DNA of 64,000 nucleotides from Arthrobacter caoxuetaonis (GTDB lineage Bacteria; Actinomycetota; Actinomycetes; Actinomycetales; Micrococcaceae): positions 744,001 to 808,000 of the forward strand of contig NZ_CP099466.1 of assembly GCF_023921125.1 (NCBI RefSeq), written 5' to 3'. Shown here one piece after another: positions 5,831-20,867 of the stretch (the stretch's first letter is position 1; every line of letters starts with the position of its first letter). The translations under genes and the position numbers were made by a program. Below the pieces are notes generated by a model, which saw nothing but the letters and a program-made list of their open reading frames with translations, was not told the DNA's origin and made no database searches.

Positions 5831-5930
5831 GCCGATGGGACCGGCACGGGCCAGACAGAGGTCGATAAACTGAGCTCCACCGCCCTGCGCTGGGACCTTG
5901 CTGCGCCGTCGGAACTACGTCTACCTGACC

Positions 5931-5977
5931 ACAGACACAGACACAGACACAGACACAGACACAGACACAGACACAGA
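5931..5977. repeat. Hexanucleotide tandem repeat (ACAGAC)n
   Basis: Seven perfect copies of ACAGAC at 5931-5972 followed by a partial copy. In one frame it would read Thr-Asp repeats and on the other strand Cys-Val repeats, but no gene around it is credible. A pure hexamer array in a G+C-rich genome is a likely slippage site. It lies in non-coding sequence between the lipoprotein remnant and the defence operon. Confidence 0.85.
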
Positions 5978-6532
5978 TGGTCATGGGAGCTGTTGCAGCC
6001 TTTGCGCTCGGCCTCGCGAGGAGCGGTTCCTGTCGCCTTCCTTGAGCGGAGGGGGAGCGTGGGTGTATGCGTCTGCCTAGTTGGCAGGTGTGTCCACTCG
6101 GCTTTCGGAATCTTGCCTTGCTTGGGTCTGAACCGGCGGCGTCTCTCGAGCTGTCCGCCGCCGCCCGGCGCAAAGACCTCAATCGCTTTTCGGACGCGGC
6201 TTTTTATTCGCATCCGAAGGAGCTTCCTCTAGGAACTGCGGCAGAGACGGCTTTGGCTTCGGGGAAGGTGTCCTTGGCCAGCTCGGCTACCGATTTTCGC
6301 CACGGCTCGCGTCCAGCTCACCGGGCCGTCACTTCGGATCCCGTGACTTCGATCCTTCGGCCTGGGCCGTCCCAGCCATCGCCGGCGACCGCCACGATCA
6401 GTTCGATCCCGACCTGTGTCAAGAGAGTGAGGTTGCAAAAGCACTAAGAGCCCAAAAATGCCTTCGGCGTGTGGCGCCACAATCCGTTCACGGTACCGAT
6501 ACGGTGGCTCTACACATAAACCGGGGGGGGAA
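5978..6532. other. Gene-free leader region ahead of the defence operon
   Basis: About 550 bases without a supportable gene. It presumably holds the promoter of the large operon beginning at 6533. Weak promoter-like hexamers can be picked out (for example TTCACG near 6487 with TACACA about 18 bases downstream), but none is convincing. The run of eight Gs immediately before AAATG is the only ribosome-site-like element. Confidence 0.4.
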
Positions 6533-9500
6533 ATGTCAACGTTGACAAAGGGCTGGGAGCCAGACGAGACGCTCGTCCGAGAGGTCAAAGAGCAGTTTGC
6601 AAGCGCTATAACGGCGTATACGGCAAAACCGACACTAATCACGGAGCACGCCAATCACGAGGAATCGATTCGCACTGGAGGATACGCGAGCCGCACGCTC
6701 TTGGAGCTCGTCCAAAACGCTGCCGATGCGATGGCTGGCATTGACGACACAGATGCCTTGGGTCGGGTGGAGATTGTCCTTGATCCCGAATCTCGGACCC
6801 TCTACTGCGCGAACTCTGGCCGCCCCTTCTCCAAGAGCGGCCTCGTCGCAATTACTCACGCCCACCTCAGCGGCAAGCGTGGTGACGAGATTGGCCGCTT
6901 CGGGCTGGGTTTTAAATCGGTTCTCGCTGTCAGTAGTAGGCCGCAAGTTCTTAGTCGGTCAGTTTCCTTTGAGTTCAATTCAAAGGAGGCGAATAGTGCG
7001 CTGAAGCAAATCGGGGCTGCTACCAGGAGCCTGCCTGTGCTTCGTACGGCGACCTTGGTGGATGCATCGGCCACGATTGCTGCAGACCCGACTGCTAGTG
7101 ACCTTGCAGAATGGGCGACAACAATTGTGCGCCTCCCCGACATTACCGACTTGGACCGGATATGTAAGGAGATGGAGAAATTTGCGTCTGAATTCCTGCT
7201 CTTCGTCGGTGCGGTTCGTGAGGTCCGGCTCAGCGTTCTCGGCGACGAAGGATTTACGACAAGTCACGTTTCTCGCAGCCTAGGCGACGGTCGCTTCAAA
7301 ATAGAGCGCCCAGACGGTACTGGAGATGAATGGTTCGTTAATGAGGCTATGCATGCCCCAAGCTCGGTTGCACGCCGTGAAGTGGGCGAGGCTGTTTCAC
7401 GGAGCGAGATTAAAGTCAGTGTGGCTATTCCGCTGAAGCCTCGAAGGGCAAACTCGGAGACGGGCGATCTCGGTAATCAGATCGGCCAGTTCTGGAGTTA
7501 CTTCCCGTTGCAAGACAAGACATCCGCAACGGCCTTCTTCAATGCGCCCTGGAGTGTCAATGATGACAGGACGACTCTACTTTCGAACCAATACAATCGT
7601 GAGATTCTGGCGACCGTCGCAGAACTTTTTGTAGAGCTCTTGCCACGACTAAGTACGAAGGAAGATCCTGCCGCCCATCTCGATTACCTACCCGCGCGAG
7701 GTAGAGAAGCAAAGTACTTCGGGGACGAAGTTTTGTGTGCTTTGGTACCTCCACTCGCTGTCTCAGCGTTGTTGGTTCCGGATGGTACGGGAGAGCTGTG
7801 CAATCCCGCGGAATTGAGACCGCTTGACTTTGCCTGCGACTGGAAAATTCCGGAGGAGGCACACGAAGGCTGGATTGCGTCACCGAACACCTTGAACGAT
7901 GTTCCGCATTGGCGTTGTTATAGTTCTACTCAGCGGATTTCTCGGCTGCGCCAGTTATTTGCTACGAGCGTTGATCCAACGCGGTATGACGATGATGATC
8001 GCGGAATAAAGCGTGCACTTGAGCTCATGCCCAAAAGGGGCATCCAGTCCTGGCTGCGGGAGTGGGCTGAAGGCGGGGATATGCGTTCTTCTGCGAACGC
8101 CCTTCGGGTGGTACTAAAGAACCGTCAAATGGACGACGCTGACAAAGTCCGTGTAATCCCAACCAGTGACGGTTTGAAGGCATTATGTGACCGTAGCTTG
8201 GTGTTCCTAGAGCAAGCTGACGACCTCGCTATTGAGGGCGCGATTTTTATCAGCCCTGAATTTCTTAGATTGCCGGACGTGGAGAAAATTCTGCGATCAG
8301 CAGGATTCCGAGACTTGGACCCCGAGGCAATTTTGGCAGCACGGCTAAGTCAGCTAACCCCCGAGGCCGGTAACGAGCAGCAAGCAAAATTTTGGGACGC
8401 AGCACTTGGGGTGAGCCTGCGTGAAGCACTTAGAATCGTCCAAGCGAACCCCACTGCTCAGATCCTGGTCCCGACCAAGGACGGCGAGTGGCACTGGCCG
8501 CAACAGGTACTCGACCTCGACAGCGACATACCGGCATATTCCAATGTATTGCTAGACCGTGGTCGCTGTCTTCCTGTGCTTGCTCATAAGCTGGGTGTGG
8601 CACACCGTCCGGTGGCGGATTTCTCACTCGAGGACGAATCTTTTGGCCAGCTTTATCAGGAATGGGTACTCGAGGAACTGAACACTAAGCTTACTCCGGG
8701 CGAGCGTCCCATCGAGAAGATTGCTCTCTATCCGAGAGACTCTCACTCACCGGGGCCGTTTTCTCCTCTGTTCTTGTTCGAACAGTCGGGTGCTAGTAAC
8801 GAGGTGAGGGAATCCTGGACACGGCAACTCCTAGAGCTGGGGGATGCTTCATGGGACTGCGAGGACCTATCTACTGGCGCATCTTACAGAGTCAAATCTC
8901 CCGTCAGGTGGGCTGTGGAGGCAGTAGGCCTTTTGCGCAGTTCGCGCGGATACCGCCGGATTGCCGAACTGGTGGCTCCATCTCTGGTGCAGTATAGGGA
9001 CCTTCTTCCGCTGTACGAGGGCCCCCGGAGCATAGTCGATATCCTTCGTCTCCCAGCTGACCTCAAGATGGTCCCTAAGCCAGTCCTGCGGGACGCACTT
9101 AACGTCGATCTCCTGCCCCCGCAGTTTGACGACGGCCTTCTTGTCGAATTCCTTTTGGACGCGGCTAGCCGGGCTTACCCGGAAGGGAAGCCCCCACGAA
9201 TCCCTGCTCGCGTGGGTAGGATTATAGAATCCTGTCCTAGCAACACGGTCTTCACTGCCGTCAACGAAGAACAGCGCCAATATCTCGCTACTCATCAGAG
9301 GCCTTTTCTCCTTGCCACCGAGGCGCAAGCTGAACGCCTAGCCCAAGAAGTGGGCTGTCTCAGCTTTGAGGACAGTTTTTCTTTTTCGACTCGCATCGAT
9401 GGCGAACAGGACTCTGAACCCCTCCTCGACGTCTTTACCGGATTGCGCAGTTTCACAGCTAAAACGGACCTGAACAGCGTGATGGTTGCTCGTGCAGAGT

Positions 9501-11299
9501 CTGTGGCGAAGTGGGTCACGACTAAGGAGGGTGTCGTGCCTCAGTCGCTGGACTCACACCGCGACGGTTTCAAACTGGTCATACGGACAGGCCTTGATGA
9601 GCGTGCAACTCTGCGTGTCGTAAGCGAGTCGTTCGACTTGGGCCTGAATAATTCGGACATTGACCGAGTCCTCAAGGATGGAATAGATCATCGCCTTGAA
9701 ATGATGCGTCAGGAAGCTCTGGCCGCAACCACAGATGTAGACCGGTTGGAAGTTTATTTCGGTGCAGATGACCTCAGAGAGGAACTGCCGAAGGGACTGT
9801 GGCAAGGGCTTGTCGCACAAAAACTGGTGAACAGGGATACTTCGGTCGCCGAACTGTTCCTGTCCGTTTACGGCAAGGATTCTGTCAGCAAAGTTGCGGA
9901 CCTCTTTCGCCGTGAGGGGTTTCCGGACGTCCCCACGCAATGGGCTGGCGGAGCAGCTACCATTTCTTGGCTTAGGAAGATGGGATTCGGCACCGAGTTT
10001 GCCGGGCAGAAGAACCGCAGACAGGACGCAGAGTTCGTCATACCGGGTGCTACTGTCCTGCCGGACCTGCACGACTACCAGGCAAGGATTAGTACTGAGC
10101 TCGCCAATGTGATTTTGGAAGTTGGGGACGGGGGACGCCGCAGTAAAGCTATGGTCGAGTTGCCCACAGGTGCCGGCAAGACACGAGTTGCGACGCAGAC
10201 CATTCTGCAGCTTTTCATTGACGGCGAGCTCCGAGGCCCCATCCTATGGATTGCGCAGTCACAGGAACTCTGCGAACAAGCCGTTCAAACGTTCTCTGAA
10301 GTGTGGAGGGGACTCTGTACAGCTCAAGCCGTCGATTTGCCTTTGACCGTGGGGCGCCTGTGGCAAGACAACGAGGTCCACGAGCCGGATACGGACTTGA
10401 GCGTGATCGTGGCCACGGACGCAAAATTGGATGTGATCATTGGTCGCGCTGAGTACGAATGGCTCAGCAATGCCAAGGCCGTCTTCGTAGACGAGGGCCA
10501 CGTTGCCGGAACTTCCACCCGGTACACAGGAATCTTCTCCTGGCTCGGTGTTGACGGCCGTAAGTGGGAGCGTCCACTCGTTGGCCTGTCAGCCACACCC
10601 TTCAAGGGCACCTCAGCCCAAGCAACTGATCAGCTTGCTGCTCGCTTCGGTCGCCGGAAACTCGTTGCGTTCCCGGAAAACCCTTATCAGGAGCTGGTCG
10701 CCCGCGGCGTCCTGGCGAGAGTTGAGCACCGGGTGCTCAAGGGGGCGGAGATTGAACTGACGGGCGCGGAGGAGAGCGAAGCAAAGCGCACCAATCGCAT
10801 CAGTAATACGGTCCTCGACCGAGTCGCCACAAACCACGCTCGTATGGCGGTTCTAGTAGACAGCATCATGGGGCTTGAGCTGGATTGGGGTAGGTCGGTC
10901 CTTGTGTTTACACCCAACGTGCTATCCGCCCAGGTGCTAGCTGCTACGTTGCGGTTCCGCGGTGTTGAGGCTGCATCAGTGAGTGGCCAAACAGGCCGCC
11001 AAGAACGTCGTGATTTGATCAAGAGGTTTAAGGACGGAGACATCCAGGTCCTCACGAACTGTGACCTGCTGACACAGGGTTTCGACGCGCCGGGGGTTAC
11101 TTCTCTCTACATCGCACGGCCAACTTTCAGCCCCAACGCTTACATCCAAATGGCAGGACGTGGTCTACGCGGACCGAGAAACGGTGGAAAGGAAAAGTGT
11201 CTGATTGTTGACATGGCGGACAATTTCGGAAATGCAGACATCAACCAACTGCTCGGATTCCGTGAATACGAAGCACTTTGGCAGGAGCAGCAGTCATGA
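6533..11299 (+). CDS. GHKL (sacsin-like) ATPase fused to an SF2 helicase, 1588 aa
   Basis: The N-terminus is an Hsp90/sacsin-type ATPase: LLELVQNAADA (56-66, catalytic E58, N62), CANSGRPF (92-99) and the glycine box GRFGLGFKSVL (121-131). About 1000 residues of unassigned sequence follow. The C-terminus is a complete DEAD/DEAH helicase of the type III restriction 'Res' kind: Walker A PTGAGKT near residue 1210, DEGH near 1319, SATPFKG near 1352 and QMAGRGLRGPRN near 1540. The start is the ATG after a G-rich run; an upstream in-frame ATG adds 25 unconserved residues. The stop overlaps the next gene (ATGA), the first of three overlaps in this operon. It is probably an ATP-driven DNA sensor or translocase in phage defence; the partners DrmA and DrmB support that. 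It is not a recognised DISARM component. Confidence 0.8.
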   Translation: MSTLTKGWEPDETLVREVKEQFASAITAYTAKPTLITEHANHEESIRTGGYASRTLLELVQNAADAMAGIDDTDALGRVEIVLDPESRTLYCANSGRPFSKSGLVAITHAHLSGKRGDEIGRFGLGFKSVLAVSSRPQVLSRSVSFEFNSKEANSALKQIGAATRSLPVLRTATLVDASATIAADPTASDLAEWATTIVRLPDITDLDRICKEMEKFASEFLLFVGAVREVRLSVLGDEGFTTSHVSRSLGDGRFKIERPDGTGDEWFVNEAMHAPSSVARREVGEAVSRSEIKVSVAIPLKPRRANSETGDLGNQIGQFWSYFPLQDKTSATAFFNAPWSVNDDRTTLLSNQYNREILATVAELFVELLPRLSTKEDPAAHLDYLPARGREAKYFGDEVLCALVPPLAVSALLVPDGTGELCNPAELRPLDFACDWKIPEEAHEGWIASPNTLNDVPHWRCYSSTQRISRLRQLFATSVDPTRYDDDDRGIKRALELMPKRGIQSWLREWAEGGDMRSSANALRVVLKNRQMDDADKVRVIPTSDGLKALCDRSLVFLEQADDLAIEGAIFISPEFLRLPDVEKILRSAGFRDLDPEAILAARLSQLTPEAGNEQQAKFWDAALGVSLREALRIVQANPTAQILVPTKDGEWHWPQQVLDLDSDIPAYSNVLLDRGRCLPVLAHKLGVAHRPVADFSLEDESFGQLYQEWVLEELNTKLTPGERPIEKIALYPRDSHSPGPFSPLFLFEQSGASNEVRESWTRQLLELGDASWDCEDLSTGASYRVKSPVRWAVEAVGLLRSSRGYRRIAELVAPSLVQYRDLLPLYEGPRSIVDILRLPADLKMVPKPVLRDALNVDLLPPQFDDGLLVEFLLDAASRAYPEGKPPRIPARVGRIIESCPSNTVFTAVNEEQRQYLATHQRPFLLATEAQAERLAQEVGCLSFEDSFSFSTRIDGEQDSEPLLDVFTGLRSFTAKTDLNSVMVARAESVAKWVTTKEGVVPQSLDSHRDGFKLVIRTGLDERATLRVVSESFDLGLNNSDIDRVLKDGIDHRLEMMRQEALAATTDVDRLEVYFGADDLREELPKGLWQGLVAQKLVNRDTSVAELFLSVYGKDSVSKVADLFRREGFPDVPTQWAGGAATISWLRKMGFGTEFAGQKNRRQDAEFVIPGATVLPDLHDYQARISTELANVILEVGDGGRRSKAMVELPTGAGKTRVATQTILQLFIDGELRGPILWIAQSQELCEQAVQTFSEVWRGLCTAQAVDLPLTVGRLWQDNEVHEPDTDLSVIVATDAKLDVIIGRAEYEWLSNAKAVFVDEGHVAGTSTRYTGIFSWLGVDGRKWERPLVGLSATPFKGTSAQATDQLAARFGRRKLVAFPENPYQELVARGVLARVEHRVLKGAEIELTGAEESEAKRTNRISNTVLDRVATNHARMAVLVDSIMGLELDWGRSVLVFTPNVLSAQVLAATLRFRGVEAASVSGQTGRQERRDLIKRFKDGDIQVLTNCDLLTQGFDAPGVTSLYIARPTFSPNAYIQMAGRGLRGPRNGGKEKCLIVDMADNFGNADINQLLGFREYEALWQEQQS

Positions 11300-12813
11300 T
11301 TCTCGTTCCGGATTTGCAGACTATTACGCAAACGGCACAAAGCGACGCTGAACGTCGGGTTGCCCGTTTGCTCCACGCGATTCATGGTGACGACGCGGTT
11401 GCCTTTCACTCGGTAAAACTCCGCTCGCACCAGTACAAGCGGGTGGCGGAAGCGGACTTTGTCGTACTGTGGAAGGGCGTTGCCATAGTTATTGAGGTCA
11501 AAGGCGGTGGGGTAACCAAGTTTGAGGGTGTTTGGTACTCCACTGACAGGCGCGGCGACGCCCATCGCCTCAATTCCTCGCCGATGGAGCAAGCGCGGAC
11601 AGCGATGTTTGCGCTCAAGGACATTCTCGAGCAGGACAAGCTCGGTTGGTTCCCTGCCGAAGCCGCAGTGGTGACGCCCGATACTAATTCACCTCCCCCC
11701 TCAACTGAGTGGAAGTCAACGCACTGGCTGGCAAAAGAAACGATGACCAGTGCCGCACTTGCAGGTGCGCTCGATCTGATTGCAAAATCAGCCCGAACTG
11801 CGCGATCCGGAATACGCCTAGCTCGGGTGAATGAACTTCGTGCGCGGCTGTTCGGGGAGTTTTCGAGGATGCCTGTTATCGATGCCCAACGCGGTGCCGT
11901 GCTCGAAGAACAAAACCTTGCCACCGTCGAGCAGGCACGCGTTCTTGCGGGCCTCGCCAAAAACGAACGGATTATGGTACTCGGCGGCGCTGGCACTGGC
12001 AAATCATTGGTTCTTGCCGAGGCCGCTAAACAAGAAGCAGATGCTGGACGATCGGTGCTCGTGACATTCCGCTCACCTGGGCTACGCAACTTCTTTGAAC
12101 CGTTGCTTAATGGCCACAATGTGGAGCTTCTTGAATTTGATCAGATTGATCAAGCAAAGCAATTCGATGTGGTTTTGGTCGATGAAGCACAGGATCTCAT
12201 GTCTGACGACGCGATGGACCTTCTTGACCGGGTCGTCAAAGGCGGCCGGGCAAGGGGTCGCTGGCGTATGTTCCTCGATCCGAACAATCAGGCACACGTC
12301 GACGGCCCCTTCGACGCCGAGGTGCTGGAACTCGTAGGTTCAGACGCAATGGAGTATGAGTTGAACAAGAACGTGCGGAACACTAGATCAATCGTGCACG
12401 TGGTGCAGGAATATCTTGGAGCAGACATTGGTGATCCCGGTATCGTCCACGGGGAGCGAATTCAGTGGAAATGGGTAACGGAAGGCGACGCACTCATTTC
12501 TGCGTTAACCGTTGCGAAACAGCTCAAGGAAGACGGCGTCCCTGCTGCTGACATCTGGATCATCCCGGTGGCTGCAGAACGCGAGCTAGATGAAGCTCGG
12601 GAAGGCTTCCGTGTGCTAAGCCCTCGCGTGGCAAAGGGGCTGGAAGCCGAACACGTTATCGTATGCGACCTGCCGAAGGAGTACCGTGACGAACAGCTTT
12701 CCGCACTGTACGTAGCGGTAACACGCGCGAGGGTCACGCTGCATATCGTTGCGACTCAGATGGACAAGAGGCAACTTCAAACTTTGGGGCGTCTTTCTGG
12801 AGCCCGGTCATGA
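11296..12813 (+). CDS. NERD nuclease domain fused to a UvrD-like helicase
   Basis: A 505-residue protein. Residues 16-120 form a NERD domain with the PD-(D/E)xK-like pair D54 and E67-V-K69. The rest is a superfamily 1 ATPase: Walker A GGAGTGKS near 231-238, Walker B VVLVDEAQDL near 293-302, a conserved arginine motif NKNVRNTRS, and C-terminal YVAVTRARVTLHIV, which is UvrD motif VI. The ATG overlapping the previous stop is preferred to an in-frame start 18 bases upstream. It overlaps the following drmA gene by four bases. The likely job is nucleolytic processing coupled to DNA unwinding within the same defence complex. Whether the nuclease is active is not certain. Confidence 0.82.
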   Translation: MILVPDLQTITQTAQSDAERRVARLLHAIHGDDAVAFHSVKLRSHQYKRVAEADFVVLWKGVAIVIEVKGGGVTKFEGVWYSTDRRGDAHRLNSSPMEQARTAMFALKDILEQDKLGWFPAEAAVVTPDTNSPPPSTEWKSTHWLAKETMTSAALAGALDLIAKSARTARSGIRLARVNELRARLFGEFSRMPVIDAQRGAVLEEQNLATVEQARVLAGLAKNERIMVLGGAGTGKSLVLAEAAKQEADAGRSVLVTFRSPGLRNFFEPLLNGHNVELLEFDQIDQAKQFDVVLVDEAQDLMSDDAMDLLDRVVKGGRARGRWRMFLDPNNQAHVDGPFDAEVLELVGSDAMEYELNKNVRNTRSIVHVVQEYLGADIGDPGIVHGERIQWKWVTEGDALISALTVAKQLKEDGVPAADIWIIPVAAERELDEAREGFRVLSPRVAKGLEAEHVIVCDLPKEYRDEQLSALYVAVTRARVTLHIVATQMDKRQLQTLGRLSGARS

Positions 12814-15800
12814 GCTTAACGCCTCATCAAATGGCAGCCATGGCCCACCTGCGCAGAGCCTACATGGGACCCGAGCAGGGGGAGGACGAGGTATTGTTCA
12901 ACCGTCCCTCTCTTCAATATGCCGTCGGCTTGTTGTTTCCTGTCGATCTAGCCGGGGCCGTAGAGCCACAAGCTCTCGACGCAGAAGCCTTCCTTATGGC
13001 AGACGTGGGAGAGGGCGAGGTAGAAGAGAGCGGAGCTGCGCCTCCCCTGGCAGAAGAGTGGAGGCCGTCCTCGGCGGCTCTCTCCTTCGTAACTACTGGG
13101 GAAACAATCATCTGCGAATTTTCGGCTGCTACCTACGGGCCGATCCTGGATGATGGCCCGCTGCGCTGGAAGCGGACTGGGCACCGAGTACCTGCCATAA
13201 AGCTCACCCGTGGCGTTGCCTCCCGCAAATCACTCGACGTGGGCGGGCTGCAGGCGGAAATCGGGTCTCGGTGGCGTCAGTACGGCGATGCATGGCTCGT
13301 CACTGTGCATGTGCGACTTCTATCAGAATCGACTGGAGACGATCGCGAGGACATTGCCCGAATGCTCTTCCAAGTGGATCTCCAAGCCTCTCCGTCAGAT
13401 GAAGGGATGATCGTGGAATACGACGTGGCTCGAGCGATCGACGTCGATCAAGAGGCGCGAGAAATCCGGTTGCGGTATCGAGACCGCAAGATTTTCGGAA
13501 TAGGCCATGGAATGGCTGCAGGCTGGGACCTTGATGAGTCTGGCAAGTGCACACGGGTGTTTCTCGATCCGGTACCCCACTTCGTGGTCCCCGGAGTTGA
13601 GCAAGCTGGGGGAAACGACTTGGCGGAGGCTCCCCGTCAGGCTTTAGACCTGGCTTTCCTAGAGAGTATCGACAAGGATTCCGAGCCGGTTGTTTTGGCG
13701 CTTAAAGCGTTCGTGGATTCCTTCGGTGTGTGGGTGGACGGTCAGAAACTGGCGGCTGACAGCCTCGGGAAGGACGCTCAAGAGATAGCATTCCGGAGCG
13801 ATCTTGCATTAAAGCGGATGAACGCTGGCGCGACCCTACTGGCAGATCCTTCTCAGCAGCAGCTCCGTCGTGCGTTTTCGCTAGCCATGGCGGCGATGAG
13901 ACTTCAAATGTGCCAAGCCGACATAGGCAGGGGAAAACCACATTCAGAGCCAGCCTGGCGTCCTTTCCAACTCGGGTTTCTCCTTGTAGCGCTGGCATCG
14001 ACCGTTGATGAGGGCCACGACGAGCGCGAACTCGTCGATCTGATCTGGTTCCCAACCGGTGGCGGGAAGACAGAGGCGTACCTCGCTTTAGCGGCGGTCG
14101 TGATCTTCCTGCGCCGCCTCGTAAACGGAACCAAGGGTGGTGGGACAGCAGTAATCACGAGGTATACGTTGCGCCTTCTGACTTCCCAGCAGTTCCAGCG
14201 GTCGGCCTCTTTGATATGCGCAATGGAACTTCTACGCGAGACCGACGACCGCGTACGTGGAATGGCACCTTTCTCTATCGGGTTGTGGGTGGGAAATGAA
14301 GTGACGCCTGGAACGCGGGACGACGCTAAATATGCACTCAACCGGCTTTATAAGGCACAGCATCCCCAGGATGCCAACAAGTTCCAAATAACCGAGTGTC
14401 CCTGGTGCCTTGCCGAGCTTGTTCCTGAGCGCAAGGACATTTCGGAGAGACAATATGGTGCCCGGCTCGTCGGCAAGGACGTCGTATTCCGGTGCGTCAG
14501 CGCTTCGTGTGAGTTCTCAACCCGCGAACTTCCCATGAACGTGGTGGACGAGGTCCTTTACGAGGAACCGCCAACGTTCCTACTCGCTACTGTAGACAAA
14601 TTCGCGCGCCTTCAGTTTAAGGAAGAGGCAGGGCGTCTTCTCGGTATCGGCACCATTTATAAGCAACCCTCATTGATCATTCAAGACGAACTGCATCTGC
14701 TGTCCGGGCCACTTGGAACCACAGTTGCCGTCTTCGATGCGGTTATTCAGCTACTTCTCAGCCGATCCGGTTCACGCCCCAAAATTGTGGCCTCGACCGC
14801 AACGATCCGGTCCTCTAGTGACCAGGTCCGCGGCCTCTATGGACGCGATGTTGCCCTCTATCCTCCGGCCAGTCTGGACGGGGACACTACCTTTTTTGCC
14901 CGTCCAGTGAGAAGCGGGCAGGGGCGACTTTATGCTGGCCTTATGCCGCAAAGCGTGTCGCAGGCTACCGCGCTTATCGCTGCTGCTTCCCCGATGCTTG
15001 AACTTCCTCACATACTTGGCGATGTCGAAGGGGACAGTGGACGGCTCGATTCATACTGGAGCCTGGTTATGTATCACAACAGCCTTCGCGAGCTGGGACG
15101 CACTGGTGCTCTCCTGCTGGATGATATCAACGGCCGGCTTGAAACACGTTCTGAGCGCCTCGAGCATAAACTACGTACTGTTCGGGCGCAGCACGTACTC
15201 GAACTCACCAGTCGGCGAGGTCCGGAAGAGCTTCCCAAAGATTTACGGGAGCTAAGGGTGGAAGCCGATGAATCAGCCGAAGCGGTTGACGTGGTGCTGT
15301 CTTCAAATATGCTGTCCGTCGGAATCGATGTCCAGCGCCTGGCGCTGATGCTCATGGTGGGGCAACCGAAGACTACTGCCGAGTACATTCAGGCAACCAG
15401 CCGTGTCGGACGAGGAGACACACACGGCATTGTGGTGACGCTGTTTCGATCGAATCGTGCGCGGGACCGTTCACATTTCGAAACCTTCCGTGGCTACCAC
15501 GATGCCCTCTACCGGAGCGTGGAACCTACCAGTGTCACCCCGTGGTCCTTATCATCCCGTGATCGTTCTCTTGCTGGGGCGACGATTGCACTCATTCGCC
15601 ATTCTTTTCCTGCGCTTGCGGGGGATGCTGCTGCCGGTGCTTTCGATCTTGCGAATATGAGATTCCGCTCCGCGCTCGACCGACTAATCGACGGTTTCTT
15701 AGAGCGCGTTACAAATGCGGACCCCGAGGAACTTGAAGCTGCCTCAGATCAGGTATGGAAAATTCTGAGGGAGTGGGACCGCAAAGCGGAGAGCGCGCGG

Positions 15801-15983
15801 GCCGCTGGCGAGCAACTACGTTACGAGCGTCGCAAAGCTGAGCAACCGTCACTAGTGAAGAGATACGGTGAGACAGGAGACGCGTGGGTGGTAGGCGATT
15901 CGATGCGTTCGGTAGAGCCGAACGTATCAGTAGAGGTTCAGGAACCTGAGAGAGAAGTGCAGCGTGCAAAACATCAGGCATGA
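12810..15983 (+). CDS. drmA: DrmA, DISARM helicase
   Basis: A 1057-residue SF2 helicase with the DrmA arrangement. An N-terminal region of about 400 residues is followed by Walker A WFPTGGGKTEAY near 414-424, a cysteine insert (CPWC near 529 and CVSASC near 560), DELHLLSGP near 626-634, ASTATIR near 661, SSNMLSVGIDVQRL, and motif VI QATSRVGRGDTHG near 861-873. DrmA together with DrmB forms the core of DISARM, where the pair binds and translocates on invading DNA. ATG overlaps the preceding stop and the 3' end overlaps drmB by 20 bases, so the four genes are probably translationally coupled. Base composition is clearly below that of the flanking chromosome. Confidence 0.88.
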   Translation: MSLTPHQMAAMAHLRRAYMGPEQGEDEVLFNRPSLQYAVGLLFPVDLAGAVEPQALDAEAFLMADVGEGEVEESGAAPPLAEEWRPSSAALSFVTTGETIICEFSAATYGPILDDGPLRWKRTGHRVPAIKLTRGVASRKSLDVGGLQAEIGSRWRQYGDAWLVTVHVRLLSESTGDDREDIARMLFQVDLQASPSDEGMIVEYDVARAIDVDQEAREIRLRYRDRKIFGIGHGMAAGWDLDESGKCTRVFLDPVPHFVVPGVEQAGGNDLAEAPRQALDLAFLESIDKDSEPVVLALKAFVDSFGVWVDGQKLAADSLGKDAQEIAFRSDLALKRMNAGATLLADPSQQQLRRAFSLAMAAMRLQMCQADIGRGKPHSEPAWRPFQLGFLLVALASTVDEGHDERELVDLIWFPTGGGKTEAYLALAAVVIFLRRLVNGTKGGGTAVITRYTLRLLTSQQFQRSASLICAMELLRETDDRVRGMAPFSIGLWVGNEVTPGTRDDAKYALNRLYKAQHPQDANKFQITECPWCLAELVPERKDISERQYGARLVGKDVVFRCVSASCEFSTRELPMNVVDEVLYEEPPTFLLATVDKFARLQFKEEAGRLLGIGTIYKQPSLIIQDELHLLSGPLGTTVAVFDAVIQLLLSRSGSRPKIVASTATIRSSSDQVRGLYGRDVALYPPASLDGDTTFFARPVRSGQGRLYAGLMPQSVSQATALIAAASPMLELPHILGDVEGDSGRLDSYWSLVMYHNSLRELGRTGALLLDDINGRLETRSERLEHKLRTVRAQHVLELTSRRGPEELPKDLRELRVEADESAEAVDVVLSSNMLSVGIDVQRLALMLMVGQPKTTAEYIQATSRVGRGDTHGIVVTLFRSNRARDRSHFETFRGYHDALYRSVEPTSVTPWSLSSRDRSLAGATIALIRHSFPALAGDAAAGAFDLANMRFRSALDRLIDGFLERVTNADPEELEAASDQVWKILREWDRKAESARAAGEQLRYERRKAEQPSLVKRYGETGDAWVVGDSMRSVEPNVSVEVQEPEREVQRAKHQA

Positions 15984-17772
15984 TCTAAGGCTTTCCGAAA
16001 CTGTATCTCCCTTCGGCGTCGGCGCCATCGTGGACGTGCTCGGGGAATCACTAATAGCACCCGACACCTCTTGGTGGGACCGGCGGACATCTCCGGAGAT
16101 CAGCTGTGACCGGCTTGTCGCGCAGCTGGGGCCCGGCGTTCTCAAACAGGCTCCAACGCATGCCGGGCCTGCAGGCAAAGACACCCCAAGTCTTCTTTAC
16201 TGGAGATTTCCGGCGTGGAGGTTCTGCGAGAGATGTTCAAAGCTGTCGAAGCTTACAGGAATAGAGAAGGGCAAGTTTCGTAACTCGTGTGACTGTGGCG
16301 GGGCACTCGTACCGATGCGTTATGTAGCGGTCTGCAAGACAGGCAGTCACATACAGGATGTTCCCTGGTTTAAATGGTCCCATCGCGGATCCGACAAAGG
16401 CGTAACGGAGGAAGTGCGCTTTTGCCGTGCTTACACAGAACTGCGCTTCGTCAGGTCCAGCAAGCGAGGCGAGGGCCTTGCATCCCTTCGCGTCGAGTGC
16501 GGCAAATGCAAACGGTCCCGTCCGCTCTCAGAACTGGTAGGCGTAGACTCGCTAATCCGTGACGGTATCAGATGCGACGGCCGGCAACCCTGGGAGCCGG
16601 AGGGACCGACTACGCAGACCTGTGAAGCGCCTCTCGTGGCTGTTCAACGAGGAGCTAACGGAAATTACATTGCCGAACGGGTGTCGGCTTTAGATATTCC
16701 CGAGGAGAGACCACGCTCTCTGCAAATCATTGAGCAGGTGCGGAGCCACGACCTGTTCACCCGACTCATCGATGACAACGGCGGTCCAAAATCGGAGCAG
16801 ATCGCTGGCTGGATTGCGGAAGAACTCAACACTGAGACTGAGCAAGTCCTTGAAGCCGCGTTTGCCAGTAGTGATGAGCCTGGATCGCCAGTCCATAAAC
16901 TTAAGGACGGTGAATGGGCCGCGTTTGTGAAAAAGATGGAGCGGAGGCGAGATCTAACCCAGGGAAACTTTGTCGTGGATGGCTGGACCCGCGACGACTA
17001 CTCGCATCGAAATGGCGGCATCCATGCTGTTCTCTCCGGCGTAGGTCAGGTGAGGAGGGTGCGCGAGGTTCGGGCTCTCAAGGGTTTCCGACGCCACAGC
17101 CCCGATGCGGACTTTATCCGGGCAGATCTCGACCGTGATCCAAAGCATCGGCCCGTCTATCCGGCGTTGGAACTGTTCGGCGAAGGCATATTCCTTCAGT
17201 TCGATGAGGCGGTGCTCGCGCAATGGGAGGCTCAGCACTCAGTGAGGGCACGTGCGGGGATCCTAGCGGAGCGACGTTCCCAGTCTGAATGGGCCAACCG
17301 GCTTGATGTGCCCGAACCACGATTCGTTGCACTCCACACTGTTGCACACCTGCTAGTGCGGCGCCTGGCATTCGCTAGCGGTTATTCATCCGCAGCTCTG
17401 CAGGAGCGGATCTACGCGAATTCAGACCGGCCGGACAAAACCGCAGGCATCCTCATCTATACCGCAGCTGGCGACGCCCAGGGGACTCTCGGTGGGCTTG
17501 TGCGGCTAGGTGACCCTCGCCATCTGTTTCCGCTTTTGCTGGCTGCACTGGATGATGCGGATGTATGTTCCAACGACCCCGTTTGCATCGAAAGCGATAG
17601 GCAGGGAGCATCGCAGCTTAACCTCTCCGCTTGCCACGGTTGTGCGCTCATAAGTGAAACATCCTGCGAGACGGGAAACCGCCTCCTGGACCGGCAGCTG
17701 GTGCTGGGTGGGAGTGAAGTTCCAGGGCTGCTAGAGGACATACTAAAAGCTGTTCGAATGCCAGTCCTCTAG
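15964..17772 (+). CDS. drmB: DrmB, DUF1998 protein of DISARM
   Basis: A 602-residue protein with the DUF1998 signature near its C-terminus: HTVAHLLVRRLAF, then GILIYTAAGDAQGTLGGLV, and a cysteine cluster (DPVC, SACHGCALISETSC) expected to bind a metal. A further possible zinc site, CERC...CDCGG, lies near residues 80-105. Size and order directly after drmA match DISARM loci. The GTG start lies inside the last codons of drmA; no other in-frame start is near. In known systems DrmB binds DrmA and is needed for restriction. The usual next gene, drmC (phospholipase-D nuclease), is absent; a restriction endonuclease gene begins 133 bases later. Confidence 0.87.
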   Translation: MQNIRHDLRLSETVSPFGVGAIVDVLGESLIAPDTSWWDRRTSPEISCDRLVAQLGPGVLKQAPTHAGPAGKDTPSLLYWRFPAWRFCERCSKLSKLTGIEKGKFRNSCDCGGALVPMRYVAVCKTGSHIQDVPWFKWSHRGSDKGVTEEVRFCRAYTELRFVRSSKRGEGLASLRVECGKCKRSRPLSELVGVDSLIRDGIRCDGRQPWEPEGPTTQTCEAPLVAVQRGANGNYIAERVSALDIPEERPRSLQIIEQVRSHDLFTRLIDDNGGPKSEQIAGWIAEELNTETEQVLEAAFASSDEPGSPVHKLKDGEWAAFVKKMERRRDLTQGNFVVDGWTRDDYSHRNGGIHAVLSGVGQVRRVREVRALKGFRRHSPDADFIRADLDRDPKHRPVYPALELFGEGIFLQFDEAVLAQWEAQHSVRARAGILAERRSQSEWANRLDVPEPRFVALHTVAHLLVRRLAFASGYSSAALQERIYANSDRPDKTAGILIYTAAGDAQGTLGGLVRLGDPRHLFPLLLAALDDADVCSNDPVCIESDRQGASQLNLSACHGCALISETSCETGNRLLDRQLVLGGSEVPGLLEDILKAVRMPVL

Positions 17773-17905
17773 GCGGACGAAGTCCAGCCTCACCAAACGC
17801 TGTGTATTGGTCGAGGGATTTGTGTACCGCCCCACAGTGAGTGATGATGCTATTCCGGCTTCGAAATGTTCACAACTGGCATTTGTAGAAAGGGCTTATT
17901 GTTAA

Positions 17906-18697
17906 ATGATGCTTTGGGGAACGAAGAATTTTGATGGGACGAATGGCGATGCACCATTTGCCAGCGACCTGATTGTGTGGAAAACTCTGAAGAACGGCAG
18001 AAAAGTTGTCAACATTGCCGATTCGGACAATGATCCCTCGTGCAAATTGTCCGAGCTTGTGGTTGACCAACTAATGGCTTCCAAAGATAGCCCAGGTGCT
18101 GGTCTTGGCACTGGACGCCCGTTGGAAATGGCGGTAGCAAGTTCCTTGGAAACTGACTTGCCTAAGCTTGACCCCAGTCGTACTTGGACGGTCGGCAGAG
18201 GCTCAGAAAAAATCTCCGACTTCTTGCAGTATAAGCATTTGGAAAAGGTGAATCAGTTAGTTAATAGGCATGCGGAACTTAGAACTACGTTGGGTACCGA
18301 TTATTTGATAAAGCCGGATGTGACAGTAGGCCTACCCTCTAGGCATGAATGGGAACCACGCTTTCTGCACGCAGCCGTCTCGTGCAAATGGACAATTAGA
18401 AGTGATCGAGTTCAAAATATTCGCCACGAAAATAACCAAATGATCCGACATCGGAGGGAGCGCCTGCCACACTTGGTGACCGTGACGGCAGAGCCGCTTC
18501 CTACTCGCTTGGCAGCAATTGCACGAGGAACCGGTGAAGTAGATGCCGTCTATCACGTGGCTTATGGTGCATTGGATCGAGCTATCGGTACAGCTGGTTT
18601 TCTCAGCCGCGAGCAGAGGGATGCTTGGGAAGAGGTGACAGAGCAGGGCCGGGTGCGGCCCTATTCTGACCTTGCAAAAACACTCGCATATTGGTAG
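17906..18697 (+). CDS. NgoMIV-family type II restriction endonuclease
   Basis: A 263-residue protein that matches NgoMIV through its catalytic core: GRPLEMA with E74 (E70 in NgoMIV), LIKPDV with D138 (D140), S159-C160-K161-W followed by TIRSDR (S185-C-K187 in NgoMIV), E175 spaced 14 residues after the lysine exactly as E201 is, and the block LPHLVTVTAEPLPTR. The segment between D138 and K161 is about 24 residues shorter. NgoMIV cuts GCCGGC as a tetramer; the same site is likely here but not proved. G+C is low for this genome (43-52 percent in two sampled 60-base lines). It is separated from drmB by a 133-base gap and probably has its own promoter. The likely partner methyltransferase is at 19507-20610. 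Confidence 0.88.
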   Translation: MMLWGTKNFDGTNGDAPFASDLIVWKTLKNGRKVVNIADSDNDPSCKLSELVVDQLMASKDSPGAGLGTGRPLEMAVASSLETDLPKLDPSRTWTVGRGSEKISDFLQYKHLEKVNQLVNRHAELRTTLGTDYLIKPDVTVGLPSRHEWEPRFLHAAVSCKWTIRSDRVQNIRHENNQMIRHRRERLPHLVTVTAEPLPTRLAAIARGTGEVDAVYHVAYGALDRAIGTAGFLSREQRDAWEEVTEQGRVRPYSDLAKTLAYW

Positions 18698-19253
18698 GTC
18701 CACGCTCAGTGGGAGGCGTCGGTAGGTCTCACAATTCGTGAGTGGGCATGCTAGCTGAACAGCTGCCCCATGGGTTGCTACGACGGGACTATGAGTTCAC
18801 ATACCTGACACTCGTTATCTCCCGGTTGCGGGGCCTCTATGAAGCTTCTATATTTCGTCAATTTCCAAATCGGTTGTCGCGGTGCTGTTCAACAGTGGGC
18901 ACAGCATCTATGGGCTCTTGCTTGAACTCTGGTAAAAACCGAAGGTGTCCGTACTGTTAGAACTCAAGCGCTGAGTGCGCATGCCGAATGGCAAGGACGG
19001 GACGCATCGGTCGGAGAAGATTTTGCATGCGGAGACCCTCGAACAACGCTTGCTCAAGTTCGACCGACCTCAGCATCCAATATGTTGAGATCGGTCGTGA
19101 GGTTCTTCTTCCTGTCCAGACGGTAGCCACAGAGCCGTGCGGCGAAGGGAGCAGGCGTGATTCGACTCACTCATGAACACTGACCCAGCCCCTACTATCT
19201 CTTGGAACGTCAGAGTCGAGAGCGAGGATGGGATCACGGCTGGGAAGAGAACC
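18698..19253. other. Gene-poor stretch between endonuclease and methyltransferase fragment
   Basis: About 550 bases of low-G+C sequence. I looked for a Vsr endonuclease, a control (C) protein or a DrmC nuclease and found none. The only open frames are short (18742-18960, 18981-19088) and carry no recognisable motif. It may hold the remains of a gene lost when the methyltransferase region was rearranged. Confidence 0.5.
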
Positions 19254-19506
19254 ATGGGCATACGCACAATCGATTTATTTGCAGGCGCCGGACTATCTGG
19301 CTGCGAGCGGGCAGGCTTGGGCTTCAAGCCCATCTTCGCCGTCGAGATAGAGGCTGCGGAAGCCGCAATCTACGAGTGGCACTTTGGCTCAGAGATTGGA
19401 ATCAGGGTCTGTTACGAATGTGAAGAGCTCCCGACGCTGACAGAGAAGAGACGTCCGATGCACGTGCCTAGCCGCCACAGTTGCAGCGGCACTAAGCGCT
19501 GTGTGA
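19254..19506 (+). pseudogene. Truncated cytosine-5 DNA methyltransferase (N-terminal fragment)
   Basis: From the ATG at 19254 the frame reads MGIRTIDLFAGAGLSG, the S-adenosylmethionine motif I of cytosine-5 methyltransferases, followed by AGLGFKPIFAVEIEAAEAA and YEWHF, which fit motifs II-III. Similarity fades after about 19420, and motif IV (the catalytic PCQ) never appears. The frame then runs into the 3' end of the convergent, intact methyltransferase. It lies on the same strand as the endonuclease gene, where a cognate methyltransferase would be expected, so this may be the original partner, replaced by the intact gene. The fragment cannot be active. Confidence 0.7.
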
Positions 19507-20610
19507 CTACACGAGCTGGGGGATGCCCTCGGTGTTTCGCGCTGTGGGTACGGTCTCGACCGGGGAACTCCATCGTGATCTCGTCATCGTATCGAGGAAA
19601 TCATCAGGGAGAACACGACCGAGTGCTGCTGCCAGGACATGAACCGCGAGCCGCGGGGGAATGGCGTTGCCGATCTGTTGAGAGACGTCCTTGCCCGCCC
19701 ACGGGTAGTCAGCCGGGAACGTCTGGAGCTGGCCAGCTTCTGAGAGCGTGAGACGATCAAGTTCGCCTTCATCAGAATACAGTCTGTTTCGGGAGACTTT
19801 CCCGGTAACCGTGAAAGCAGGTTCCTTTGACGTCCGCCGACCGCGGGCCTTCGGATCCCCACCGGTTCCATAATTAGAAACCAACACGAAAGGCTCTGCC
19901 CGGTTCAAGGTCTCACCGATGCTTCTAGTCGGTAGCAACGAAGGCCTGTCCGTGGAGACTATGAGCTCTTTCCTCCTGAACCGGTGGTGCGTTGGGGCGG
20001 GAAGTTCGGGCACAAGTTCCAGGTTCGCGATCATAATCGCCCGCCGACGCGTCTGTGGAACTCCATATTCCTCTGCGTTGAGTATGCCCGTCGCTGTCTT
20101 GTAACCGAGTGATTCAAGACCCCTCGCCATGGCCTCCCAGACGGGCAGGACGGCAGGTACCTGCTCCAAGACAATGGTCTTATAGGGTTTCCCCGCCCTA
20201 TGGGCTTCCAGCGCCCACCGCAGCGGCTGCAGCACCAACCCGGTTCGCTCATCGTCCAAAGCGGCTAGTTCAGTAGTGATGTCATCCCCGCCGACCATCC
20301 GGTCAATAAAAGATAAGACTTTGTCTAAGGCCTTGCGACCGGCGCCTGCCCCCGCCACCGTATACGTCTGACACGGCGGCCCTCCAGCGAGGATCGTCGC
20401 GTGAGGGAACTCATCCGGATTGTGGTTCCGTACGTCACCTTGCACAGTTTCCAGCCCGGCGGCTCGCCTGGTTGCACAAGCATTCTCATCCCACTCGATG
20501 CCGGTCACGGACACTCCCAGCCAATGCGCGGCGACATCCAATCCACCGGGACCAGCAAAAAGATCCACCATTTGGGCGGAAGAAAGTGAACCAGATTGCG
20601 TGAACGTCAT
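19507..20610 (-). CDS. DNA cytosine-5 methyltransferase
   Basis: A 367-residue enzyme with the motifs in order: DLFAGPGGLD (motif I, from residue 16), GGPPCQTYTVAG with catalytic C80 (IV), LEQVPAVLP (VI, with Gln where Asn is usual in E-N-V), QTRRRAIMIA (VIII), RLTLSEAGQLQTFP (IX) and QQIGNAIPPRLA (X). It is complete and probably active. The ATG at 20610 is chosen because the in-frame extension beyond it enters debris of other genes; an AGGAT site lies 9 bases upstream. It points toward the NgoMIV-type endonuclease and is the natural candidate to protect the host from it. The alternative is a DrmMII role in DISARM. It may do both. Confidence 0.9.
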   Translation of the reverse strand: MTFTQSGSLSSAQMVDLFAGPGGLDVAAHWLGVSVTGIEWDENACATRRAAGLETVQGDVRNHNPDEFPHATILAGGPPCQTYTVAGAGAGRKALDKVLSFIDRMVGGDDITTELAALDDERTGLVLQPLRWALEAHRAGKPYKTIVLEQVPAVLPVWEAMARGLESLGYKTATGILNAEEYGVPQTRRRAIMIANLELVPELPAPTHHRFRRKELIVSTDRPSLLPTRSIGETLNRAEPFVLVSNYGTGGDPKARGRRTSKEPAFTVTGKVSRNRLYSDEGELDRLTLSEAGQLQTFPADYPWAGKDVSQQIGNAIPPRLAVHVLAAALGRVLPDDFLDTMTRSRWSSPVETVPTARNTEGIPQLV

Positions 20611-20645: not shown

Positions 20646-20867
20646 ATGAGCAGCATGCTGAGCCTTTCGACGATGCCTTTCGCCACAATGGGTCCCGAAA
20701 GGCTCGGCACCCCGCCGGTGTTCTTCGACGCCAAATACAAGGTCTCCTCGGCGGTCGGCAAATACGCCAACGCCGACCATTACCAAATGCTGGCCTACCG
20801 CGCCGGGGGGATCCGGAGCCTGGCTGGTCAATACAAGGGCTGGCGAGCATCGCTCTCGCCGGGTTAA
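20646..20867 (+). pseudogene. Fragment of an McrC-like 5-methylcytosine restriction subunit
   Basis: In one frame the sequence reads TPPVFFDAKYKVSSAVGKYA and then ADHYQMLAY. This is the catalytic signature region of the McrC family (a DAKYK nuclease motif followed by a Q-M-L-A-Y segment). The fragment covers only about 40 recognisable residues (roughly 20690-20800) with no upstream domain and no McrB. It is read as the debris of a modification-dependent restriction system. The gene is not functional. Confidence 0.6.

Follow-up and report, generated by a model that had tools for sequence, protein, structure and literature searches.

A DISARM-related four-gene cassette with a GHKL-helicase and a NERD helicase-nuclease in Arthrobacter caoxuetaonis

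Here we describe four adjacent genes in a stretch of 64,000 nucleotides (the window, whose positions are used below) from Arthrobacter caoxuetaonis (assembly GCF_023921125.1, contig NZ_CP099466.1, forward strand, positions 744,001-808,000). The genes, called g1, g2, DrmA (g3) and DrmB (g4), are a conserved four-gene unit. They share the DrmA and DrmB core with the defence island system associated with restriction-modification (DISARM), but no DrmC, DrmD or DrmE exceeds the curated cut-offs in this genome and two other ATPase-helicases are present instead. We regard it as very likely that this four-gene class is a defence system, for which we infer anti-phage activity and a mechanism. It is likely, with somewhat less assurance, that the system is related to DISARM and has the four co-inherited genes as its unit, with DrmAB selecting the target, the NERD protein cutting, the GHKL-helicase gating and methylation sparing self. 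Our best reading is a DISARM-related class in which the role of DrmC is taken by the NERD helicase-nuclease, with the GHKL-helicase as an additional, ATP-gated motor.

The four genes and their linkage

The original prediction described genes for a GHKL-SF2 helicase, a NERD-UvrD helicase, DrmA and DrmB that overlap end to end and are followed by an NgoMIV-family endonuclease and a cytosine-5 (C5) methyltransferase. All six open frames are present where it had placed them, and both the overlaps and the domain matches were confirmed. The genes of the cassette are:

6533..11299, plus strand: g1, a protein of 1588 amino acids with a GHKL (sacsin/Hsp90-type) ATPase, a middle region of about 790 amino acids and a RadD-like superfamily 2 (SF2) helicase (Pfam, PADLOC, NCBIfam and PDB profile matches)
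11296..12813, plus strand: g2, a NERD (PD-(D/E)xK-type) nuclease and superfamily 1 (SF1, UvrD-like) helicase
12810..15983, plus strand: g3, DrmA, a YprA-family SF2 helicase in its short form (PADLOC, NCBIfam, PDB 7s9v_A)
15964..17772, plus strand: g4, DrmB, a DUF1998/MZB protein (NF038324, PDB 7s9v_B)

ATGA overlaps of four nucleotides join g1 to g2 at 11296 and g2 to g3 at 12810, and g3 and g4 overlap by 20 nucleotides at 15964. The start of g1 was placed by homology to the related locus of Arthrobacter yangruifuii (L008), this homology beginning at 6530 of the window.

The ResIII and Helicase_C domains of g1 exceed their Pfam cut-offs. Its sacsin ATP-binding domain is recognised by NCBIfam (72.8 bits, cut-off 50), and the corresponding Pfam SACS match stays below the cut-off (26.4 versus 32.8 bits). 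Among PDB profiles g1 matches RadD (6jde), sacsin (5v47) and Hsp82, and the key motif residues are invariant across 81 rows. In g2 both the NERD domain (37.1 bits, cut-off 22.1) and UvrD_C_2 (34.7 bits, cut-off 27.4) are found, and the NERD active site is invariant across the related loci. The third protein is a DrmA as defined for DISARM type I (PADLOC DrmA, 642 bits), with a close match to 7s9v_A (E = 2.6e-136); at the position of V1296, the valine through which Serratia DrmA contacts a base, 96 of 97 DrmA rows also have a valine and the remaining row has a gap. The fourth is likewise a type I DrmB (NF038324, the NCBIfam DrmB family, 397 bits, cut-off 240; 7s9v_B, E = 8.7e-58). Catalytic residues are kept in all four proteins and the key ones are invariant.

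Searching genomes taken one per species with a g1 profile yielded 253 relatives, and for the best 80 of the 253 the locus was fetched together with up to 10 kb of flanking sequence per side. Note that the search patterns were derived from the GHKL domain, that the gene calls in the fetched loci are mechanical and that annotation of the loci relied on hidden Markov models made from these loci themselves. Of the 80 loci, 79 have DrmA and DrmB in the vicinity of g1; in the exception (L082) the contig ends 4.5 kb after g1. The arrangement is g1-NERD-DrmA-DrmB in 62 loci, g1-UvrD helicase-DrmA-DrmB in 11 and g1-DrmA-DrmB in five, and in one (L071) DrmAB is inverted and more distant. One same-strand gene order is seen in 78 of the 80. 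In 61-62 of the 62 g1-NERD loci the stop-to-stop frames of adjacent cassette genes touch or overlap, and in two loci a cassette gene is split over two frames (g1 of L079, DrmA of L064).

Furthermore, we used a second, independent and evenly drawn sample of 394 genomes of the taxonomic class, in which DrmA occurs in 64 genomes (E 1e-20) and g1 matches occur in 19 (E 1e-30), full-length in 17 genomes (18 places) and helicase-only in two. The 18 places were obtained from 23 g1 rows by merging three pairs and dropping the two helicase-only rows (G057, G258); three of them (the first copy in G290, G087 and G161) have one TGA in the matched frame. At seventeen of these places g1 precedes a same-strand DrmA by 1.5-2.0 kb; the 18th (G118) shares a contig with DrmA at a distance of about 29 kb. 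The two upstream genes thus travel with drmAB in both samples, the linkage on which the original prediction depended. The helicase-only relative in G057 (C1:3012156-3013487, a 594-amino-acid frame similar to the C-terminus of g1, without the GHKL part) lies 2.3 kb from DrmA on the opposite strand.

For g2, five of the 44 rows in the 394 genomes have E < 1e-40 and all five are directly upstream of DrmA; the remaining 39 are weak and mostly away from any DrmA. Since three of the five strong loci lack g1, the combination of NERD-helicase and drmAB is wider than g1. Loci of this kind, with DrmAB and an upstream NERD-helicase but no g1, are also seen in L115, L116, L127 and L131-L133. An extra gene of 366-369 amino acids follows DrmB in L115, L127 and L128 (no NERD gene was detected in L128) and is an SF1 helicase in the two that were scanned (L115, L128); in L131-L133 there is an upstream gene of 507-690 amino acids, with no Pfam or PADLOC family match in the two scanned.

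The protein distances of g1, g2, DrmA and DrmB agree with each other (Mantel r = 0.98-0.99 over 61 loci and 0.84-0.94 within the main clade, 53 loci; all p = 0.001). Comparing the window with L008, the ratio of nonsynonymous to synonymous substitution rates (dN/dS) is 0.054 for g1, 0.084 for g2, 0.074 for DrmA, 0.050 for DrmB and 0.046 for NgoMIV, and none of these genes has an internal stop, which argues that the frames did not arise by chance. In a tree of 98 DrmA rows (quick method, midpoint-rooted) the 63 g1-NERD rows, window included, fall in two clades of 54 and 9 rows, and these form a single branch of 68 rows together with the five g1-only rows (support 99). The 11 g1-UvrD rows group with G118 on a branch of their own, and both branches exclude the sampled DrmA that lack g1.

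DrmC, DrmD and DrmE

Following the PADLOC definitions quoted in PMC9252829, the four-gene class is neither DISARM type I nor type II, because DrmC and DrmD or DrmE are missing. We were not able to find DrmC, which both types contain, over the cut-off anywhere in the genome of A. caoxuetaonis (model DISARM_DrmC_I, cut-off 133 bits); a 500-amino-acid frame with two phospholipase D (PLD) motifs at 3.066 Mb reaches 39.8 bits and is probably a cardiolipin synthase. The best match for DrmD, the type I protein, has 45 bits in this genome against a cut-off of 610, and for DrmE, the type II protein, there is no match in it. DrmMI was not seen among the scanned genes of the island, the rest of the genome not having been searched for it. 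A strict scan for PLD motifs in the 80 related loci returned a single frame of 112 amino acids. The original prediction had recognised no DrmC, DrmD or DrmE in the window, and these genome-wide searches give no copy over the cut-offs elsewhere.

The search for DrmC is sensitive, since all 29 places over the cut-off in the 64 DrmA genomes lie 2.0-2.5 kb from DrmA, on the same strand. They are what remains of 31 rows after removal of two that fell below the family cut-off, in G113 and G240, each close to a DrmA-like place without g1. We compiled the 74 DrmA places of these genomes by hand, merging fragments of one gene. DrmC accompanies 29 of them and g1 another 17, with no overlap, which leaves 28 without either (Fisher p = 1e-4, relatedness ignored). 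Both kinds of locus can be found in one genome: in G161, G215, G241, G250, G261 and G275 a DrmC-type and a g1-type locus occupy different places.

A similar picture is obtained for the NERD-helicase, which is next to DrmA at eight places, none of them with DrmC, versus 29 of the 66 other places (Fisher p = 0.02, relatedness ignored). The eight are the five strong ones, G100, and G031 and G025 (25% matches). Ten of the 44 g2 rows were entered, namely the five strong ones and five weaker ones that share a contig with DrmA, and the other 34, all weak, were left aside. Two further places, in G118 and G164, where a weak NERD match lies at a distance of 5.4-5.5 kb from DrmA, are uncounted in this test and are also without DrmC over the cut-off.

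A DISARM-related variant without the three proteins, as had been proposed, is borne out, and g1 and DrmC are mutually exclusive. The further proposal that g1 and g2 replace the missing subunits holds in one half: NERD-helicase and DrmC were not found together, which fits a replacement of DrmC by the NERD protein. On the other hand, g1 stands alongside a DrmD-like helicase and a DrmMI-like enzyme in four of the five loci of one subclade, so that g1 is better seen as an addition than as a substitute for DrmD. In these four loci (L056, L058, L060 and L061, at about 2.0-10 kb) g1-DrmA-DrmB, without a NERD gene, is divergent from the DrmD-like SNF2 helicase and the type IIG/DrmMI-like enzyme; the set resembles DISARM type I with g1, and the stretch has no PLD motif. 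L056 is labelled Planococcus (Bacillota) while its DrmA groups with Microbacterium, which may reflect a recent transfer or a mislabelled assembly.

The methyltransferase and restriction genes

Three further features follow DrmB:

17906..18697, plus strand: accessory NgoMIV-family restriction endonuclease (PF09015)
19269..19388, plus strand: relic of a C5-methyltransferase, about 40 amino acids with the N-terminal motif I (weak match)
20610..19507, minus strand: accessory intact C5-methyltransferase of another lineage (similar to the enzymes of L017 and L081)

The endonuclease belongs to a type II restriction enzyme family (166 bits), and L008 carries an 84% identical copy at the same place. 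Among the fetched loci only these two have NgoMIV after DrmB; it is present above 100 bits in three of the 80 loci, a fourth having 82 bits. NaeI or NgoMIV enzymes occur in 14 of the 80 fetched stretches and neither exceeds 100 bits in the other 66 (other restriction enzymes were not sought). Vsr-like endonucleases were seen in 43 stretches and C5-methyltransferases above 100 bits in 59. The methyltransferase of the window scores 92.9 bits with TIGR00675, just below the cut-off of 100.65, has the GGPPCQ motif and matches the methyltransferases of L017 and L081 at 60-65%.

Taking the best-scoring methyltransferase of each locus, we found no correlation between its distances and those of DrmA (r = -0.05, p = 0.66 over 44 loci; r = 0.11, p = 0.12 over 37 loci), whereas g1 and DrmA in the same 37 loci give r = 0.87. 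With a methyltransferase correlation near zero and NgoMIV being rare, the restriction-modification part looks like an exchangeable accessory and not like a subunit, contrary to the original prediction, in which the pair was part of the system.

The methyltransferases are of several lineages. Eleven of the 14 rows near NaeI or NgoMIV enzymes are in one clade of 13 rows that includes L008 (support 97/96). In seven of the loci closest to the window cassette, DrmB is directly followed by a lone methyltransferase, and these belong to one clade of eight rows. The enzyme of the window is in a third clade of nine rows (support 100/100), outside the clade of those 11; the third clade includes one L081 row less than 3 kb from a NaeI enzyme, with another methyltransferase between them.

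The relic (about 19269-19388) matches the L008 and L051 methyltransferases at 44-48% (E about 0.03, weak alone), after which the homology stops; with L005 the match extends over 19251-19433 (E = 0.009). It lies where L008 and other relatives carry an intact methyltransferase. Since the relic is at this place and the intact enzyme belongs to another clade, the modification gene beside the window cassette has probably been exchanged. The endonuclease and the intact methyltransferase are convergent, with the relic of a different methyltransferase between them, and need not be a cognate type II pair; judging from the gene sequences, the pair is probably an assembly of parts with different origin.

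Possible mechanism, alternatives and known systems

According to excerpts of PMC9142583, 5'-overhang DNA activates the DrmAB of Serratia, and 5-methylcytosine lowers its ATPase activity. By analogy, DrmAB would load where incoming or replicating DNA exposes 5'-overhang ends and then unwind this DNA, and the NERD helicase-nuclease would track and cut the opened DNA in place of DrmC. The giant GHKL protein may act as an ATP-gated clamp or sensor while its SF2 motor remodels DNA or licenses the complex. Self DNA would be spared as cytosine methylation from the nearby methyltransferase damps DrmAB activity. Because this methylation would come from whichever methyltransferase adjoins, the core would not be tied to one recognition sequence; a conserved engine with exchangeable methyltransferases is predicted to read the state of the DNA and not its sequence.

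That the NERD protein is the nuclease of the system seems reasonably probable to us, while the role of the GHKL part as a gate or sensor is a tentative assignment. We also lean slightly towards a wider view, a further DISARM class in which an Hsp90/sacsin-type ATPase-helicase gates DrmAB, the NERD helicase-nuclease replaces DrmC and a methylation-agnostic engine can be used with any strain's cytosine methyltransferase, with at least three subtypes (NERD, UvrD, and DrmD with a DrmMI-like enzyme).

Several observations weigh against our main reading. A UvrD-like helicase occupies the g2 position in the 11 g1-UvrD loci, and the one scanned (L073) has no NERD domain; the five g1-only loci have no gene there at all, so g2 as a nuclease is not a general feature of g1 loci. 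Neither DrmC, g1 nor a NERD helicase was found at 22 of the 74 DrmA places, where the nuclease may thus come from elsewhere. In 21 of the 80 loci there is no C5-methyltransferase above 100 bits in the fetched stretch (several of them shortened), and hence self-marking by methylation would not be obligatory in cis. The middle region of g1 has no clear structural match. Finally, DrmA scores 783 bits with NCBIfam DrmAS, below the equivalog cut-off of 950; the DrmA tested reach 783-853 bits in the g1-NERD and g1-only clades (four proteins) and 815-908 where g1 is absent (four proteins), and the g1-UvrD DrmA of L073 passes (1014).

A composite centred on restriction-modification, close to the original prediction, would have the NgoMIV-type enzyme do the cutting and the methyltransferase the marking of self, the four genes being helpers. 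Both enzymes are indeed in the island, the low dN/dS of NgoMIV indicates purifying selection, NaeI/NgoMIV and C5-methyltransferase genes recur in the relatives and the L081 methyltransferase of the window's clade is near a NaeI enzyme. Such a composite is nevertheless unlikely given the 66 loci without either of these two restriction enzymes over 100 bits, the several methyltransferase lineages that do not co-diverge with the cassette, and the clade with 11 of the 14 rows near NaeI or NgoMIV enzymes, which excludes the window's methyltransferase. Equally unlikely is a conventional DISARM relying on a PLD nuclease from another locus or on a PLD enzyme of the host, with g1 and g2 as accessories. 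Published DISARM can do without DrmC, for which a PLD nuclease of the host has been suggested as a substitute (PMC9142583, in excerpts), a part that the two-PLD frame at 3.066 Mb might play; however, neither DrmC nor DrmD nor DrmE exceeds its cut-off in the genome, the exclusion of g1 and DrmC holds even in genomes with both kinds of locus, and g2 carries its own invariant nuclease motif.

A little less likely still is abortive infection, in which the GHKL-helicase would sense the phage and the NERD nuclease would degrade all DNA, so that the cell dies. GHKL ATPases are known in several defence proteins, and the PADLOC TmtA models match the N-terminus of g1 (184.6 bits, residues 38-403 of a 1613-amino-acid frame). 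Here the frequent methyltransferase and the DrmAB core point instead to a discrimination of self and non-self at the DNA, and excerpts of PMC12458937 report the related ARMADA system as non-abortive. We consider it very improbable that the genes serve housekeeping DNA repair or the rescue of replication forks. The YprA family also includes repair helicases, and RadD, the nearest match of the C-terminus of g1, carries the annotation of a DNA repair helicase, but the spread is patchy (full-length g1 in 17 of 394 genomes), the genes are in a low-G+C island and varied restriction and other defence genes adjoin them in relatives.

The reading we prefer, a DISARM-related class with a NERD helicase-nuclease in the place of DrmC, can be compared with known systems. 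In common with DISARM types I and II, DrmA and DrmB are separate adjacent genes and the base-contacting valine is kept, and as in DISARM with DrmMII a C5-methyltransferase is nearby, here not co-diverging with the cassette. Besides the missing proteins, a DrmA below the curated DISARM cut-offs and an exchangeable methyltransferase set the cassette apart. As excerpted from PMC12458937, ARMADA type II similarly has three helicases of different families per operon, one of YprA type and one SF1 (GajB-like), but in the present cassette DrmA and DrmB are separate proteins and a GHKL-SF2 gene comes first. TALON shares a YprA-family helicase with a NERD-type nuclease; none of the five genes scanned in the window corresponds to its TPR-CSD and TBP genes, and the excerpted description (PMC12458937) mentions no GHKL-helicase.

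TmtA, of the Tiamat system, resembles g1 in its N-terminal GHKL domain. The match is not full-length, the best model covering only profile positions 8-359 of 1538, and the remainder of g1 is unmatched; in g1 the GHKL domain is fused to a RadD-like SF2 helicase, and the gene is part of an operon. The NERD and/or SF1 helicase architecture of g2 is like that of the RT-associated NERD-helicase, Nhi, AbiO and C3a187 in PADLOC. Unlike these, g2 travels with drmAB, and no reverse transcriptase (RT) was recognised among the five genes scanned.

We did not find a description of the g1-NERD-DrmA-DrmB gene set in the literature searched. Since a 2025 preprint notes uncharacterised DISARM-like classes (PMC12458937, in excerpts), the DrmA of the g1-type group may be in its tree without being described. 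How DISARM destroys DNA is an open point, the nuclease being unknown and DrmC dispensable (PMC9142583, in excerpts). The cassette, found in many actinobacteria, provides a large natural class without DrmC, with a fixed set of partners and an intact nuclease-helicase adjoining DrmA, and for these reasons the question could be tested with four genes and point mutants. If our reading is correct, a GHKL-type ATPase-helicase in a DISARM-like core would connect Hsp90-type ATP gating to DNA targeting.

The cassette lies in an island of about 5.1-21.2 kb: similarity to relatives in the genus stops at about 5119 on the left and restarts at about 21195 on the right, and a 91-bp piece within it (20715-20805) also matches one genus relative elsewhere. 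The G+C content is 55-58% across 6-20 kb versus 63-71% in the window outside (two boundary bins omitted). One more feature lies about 550 bases upstream of g1:

5930..5977, no strand: perfect (CACAGA)8 hexanucleotide tandem repeat

A changed length of this repeat could in principle affect expression.

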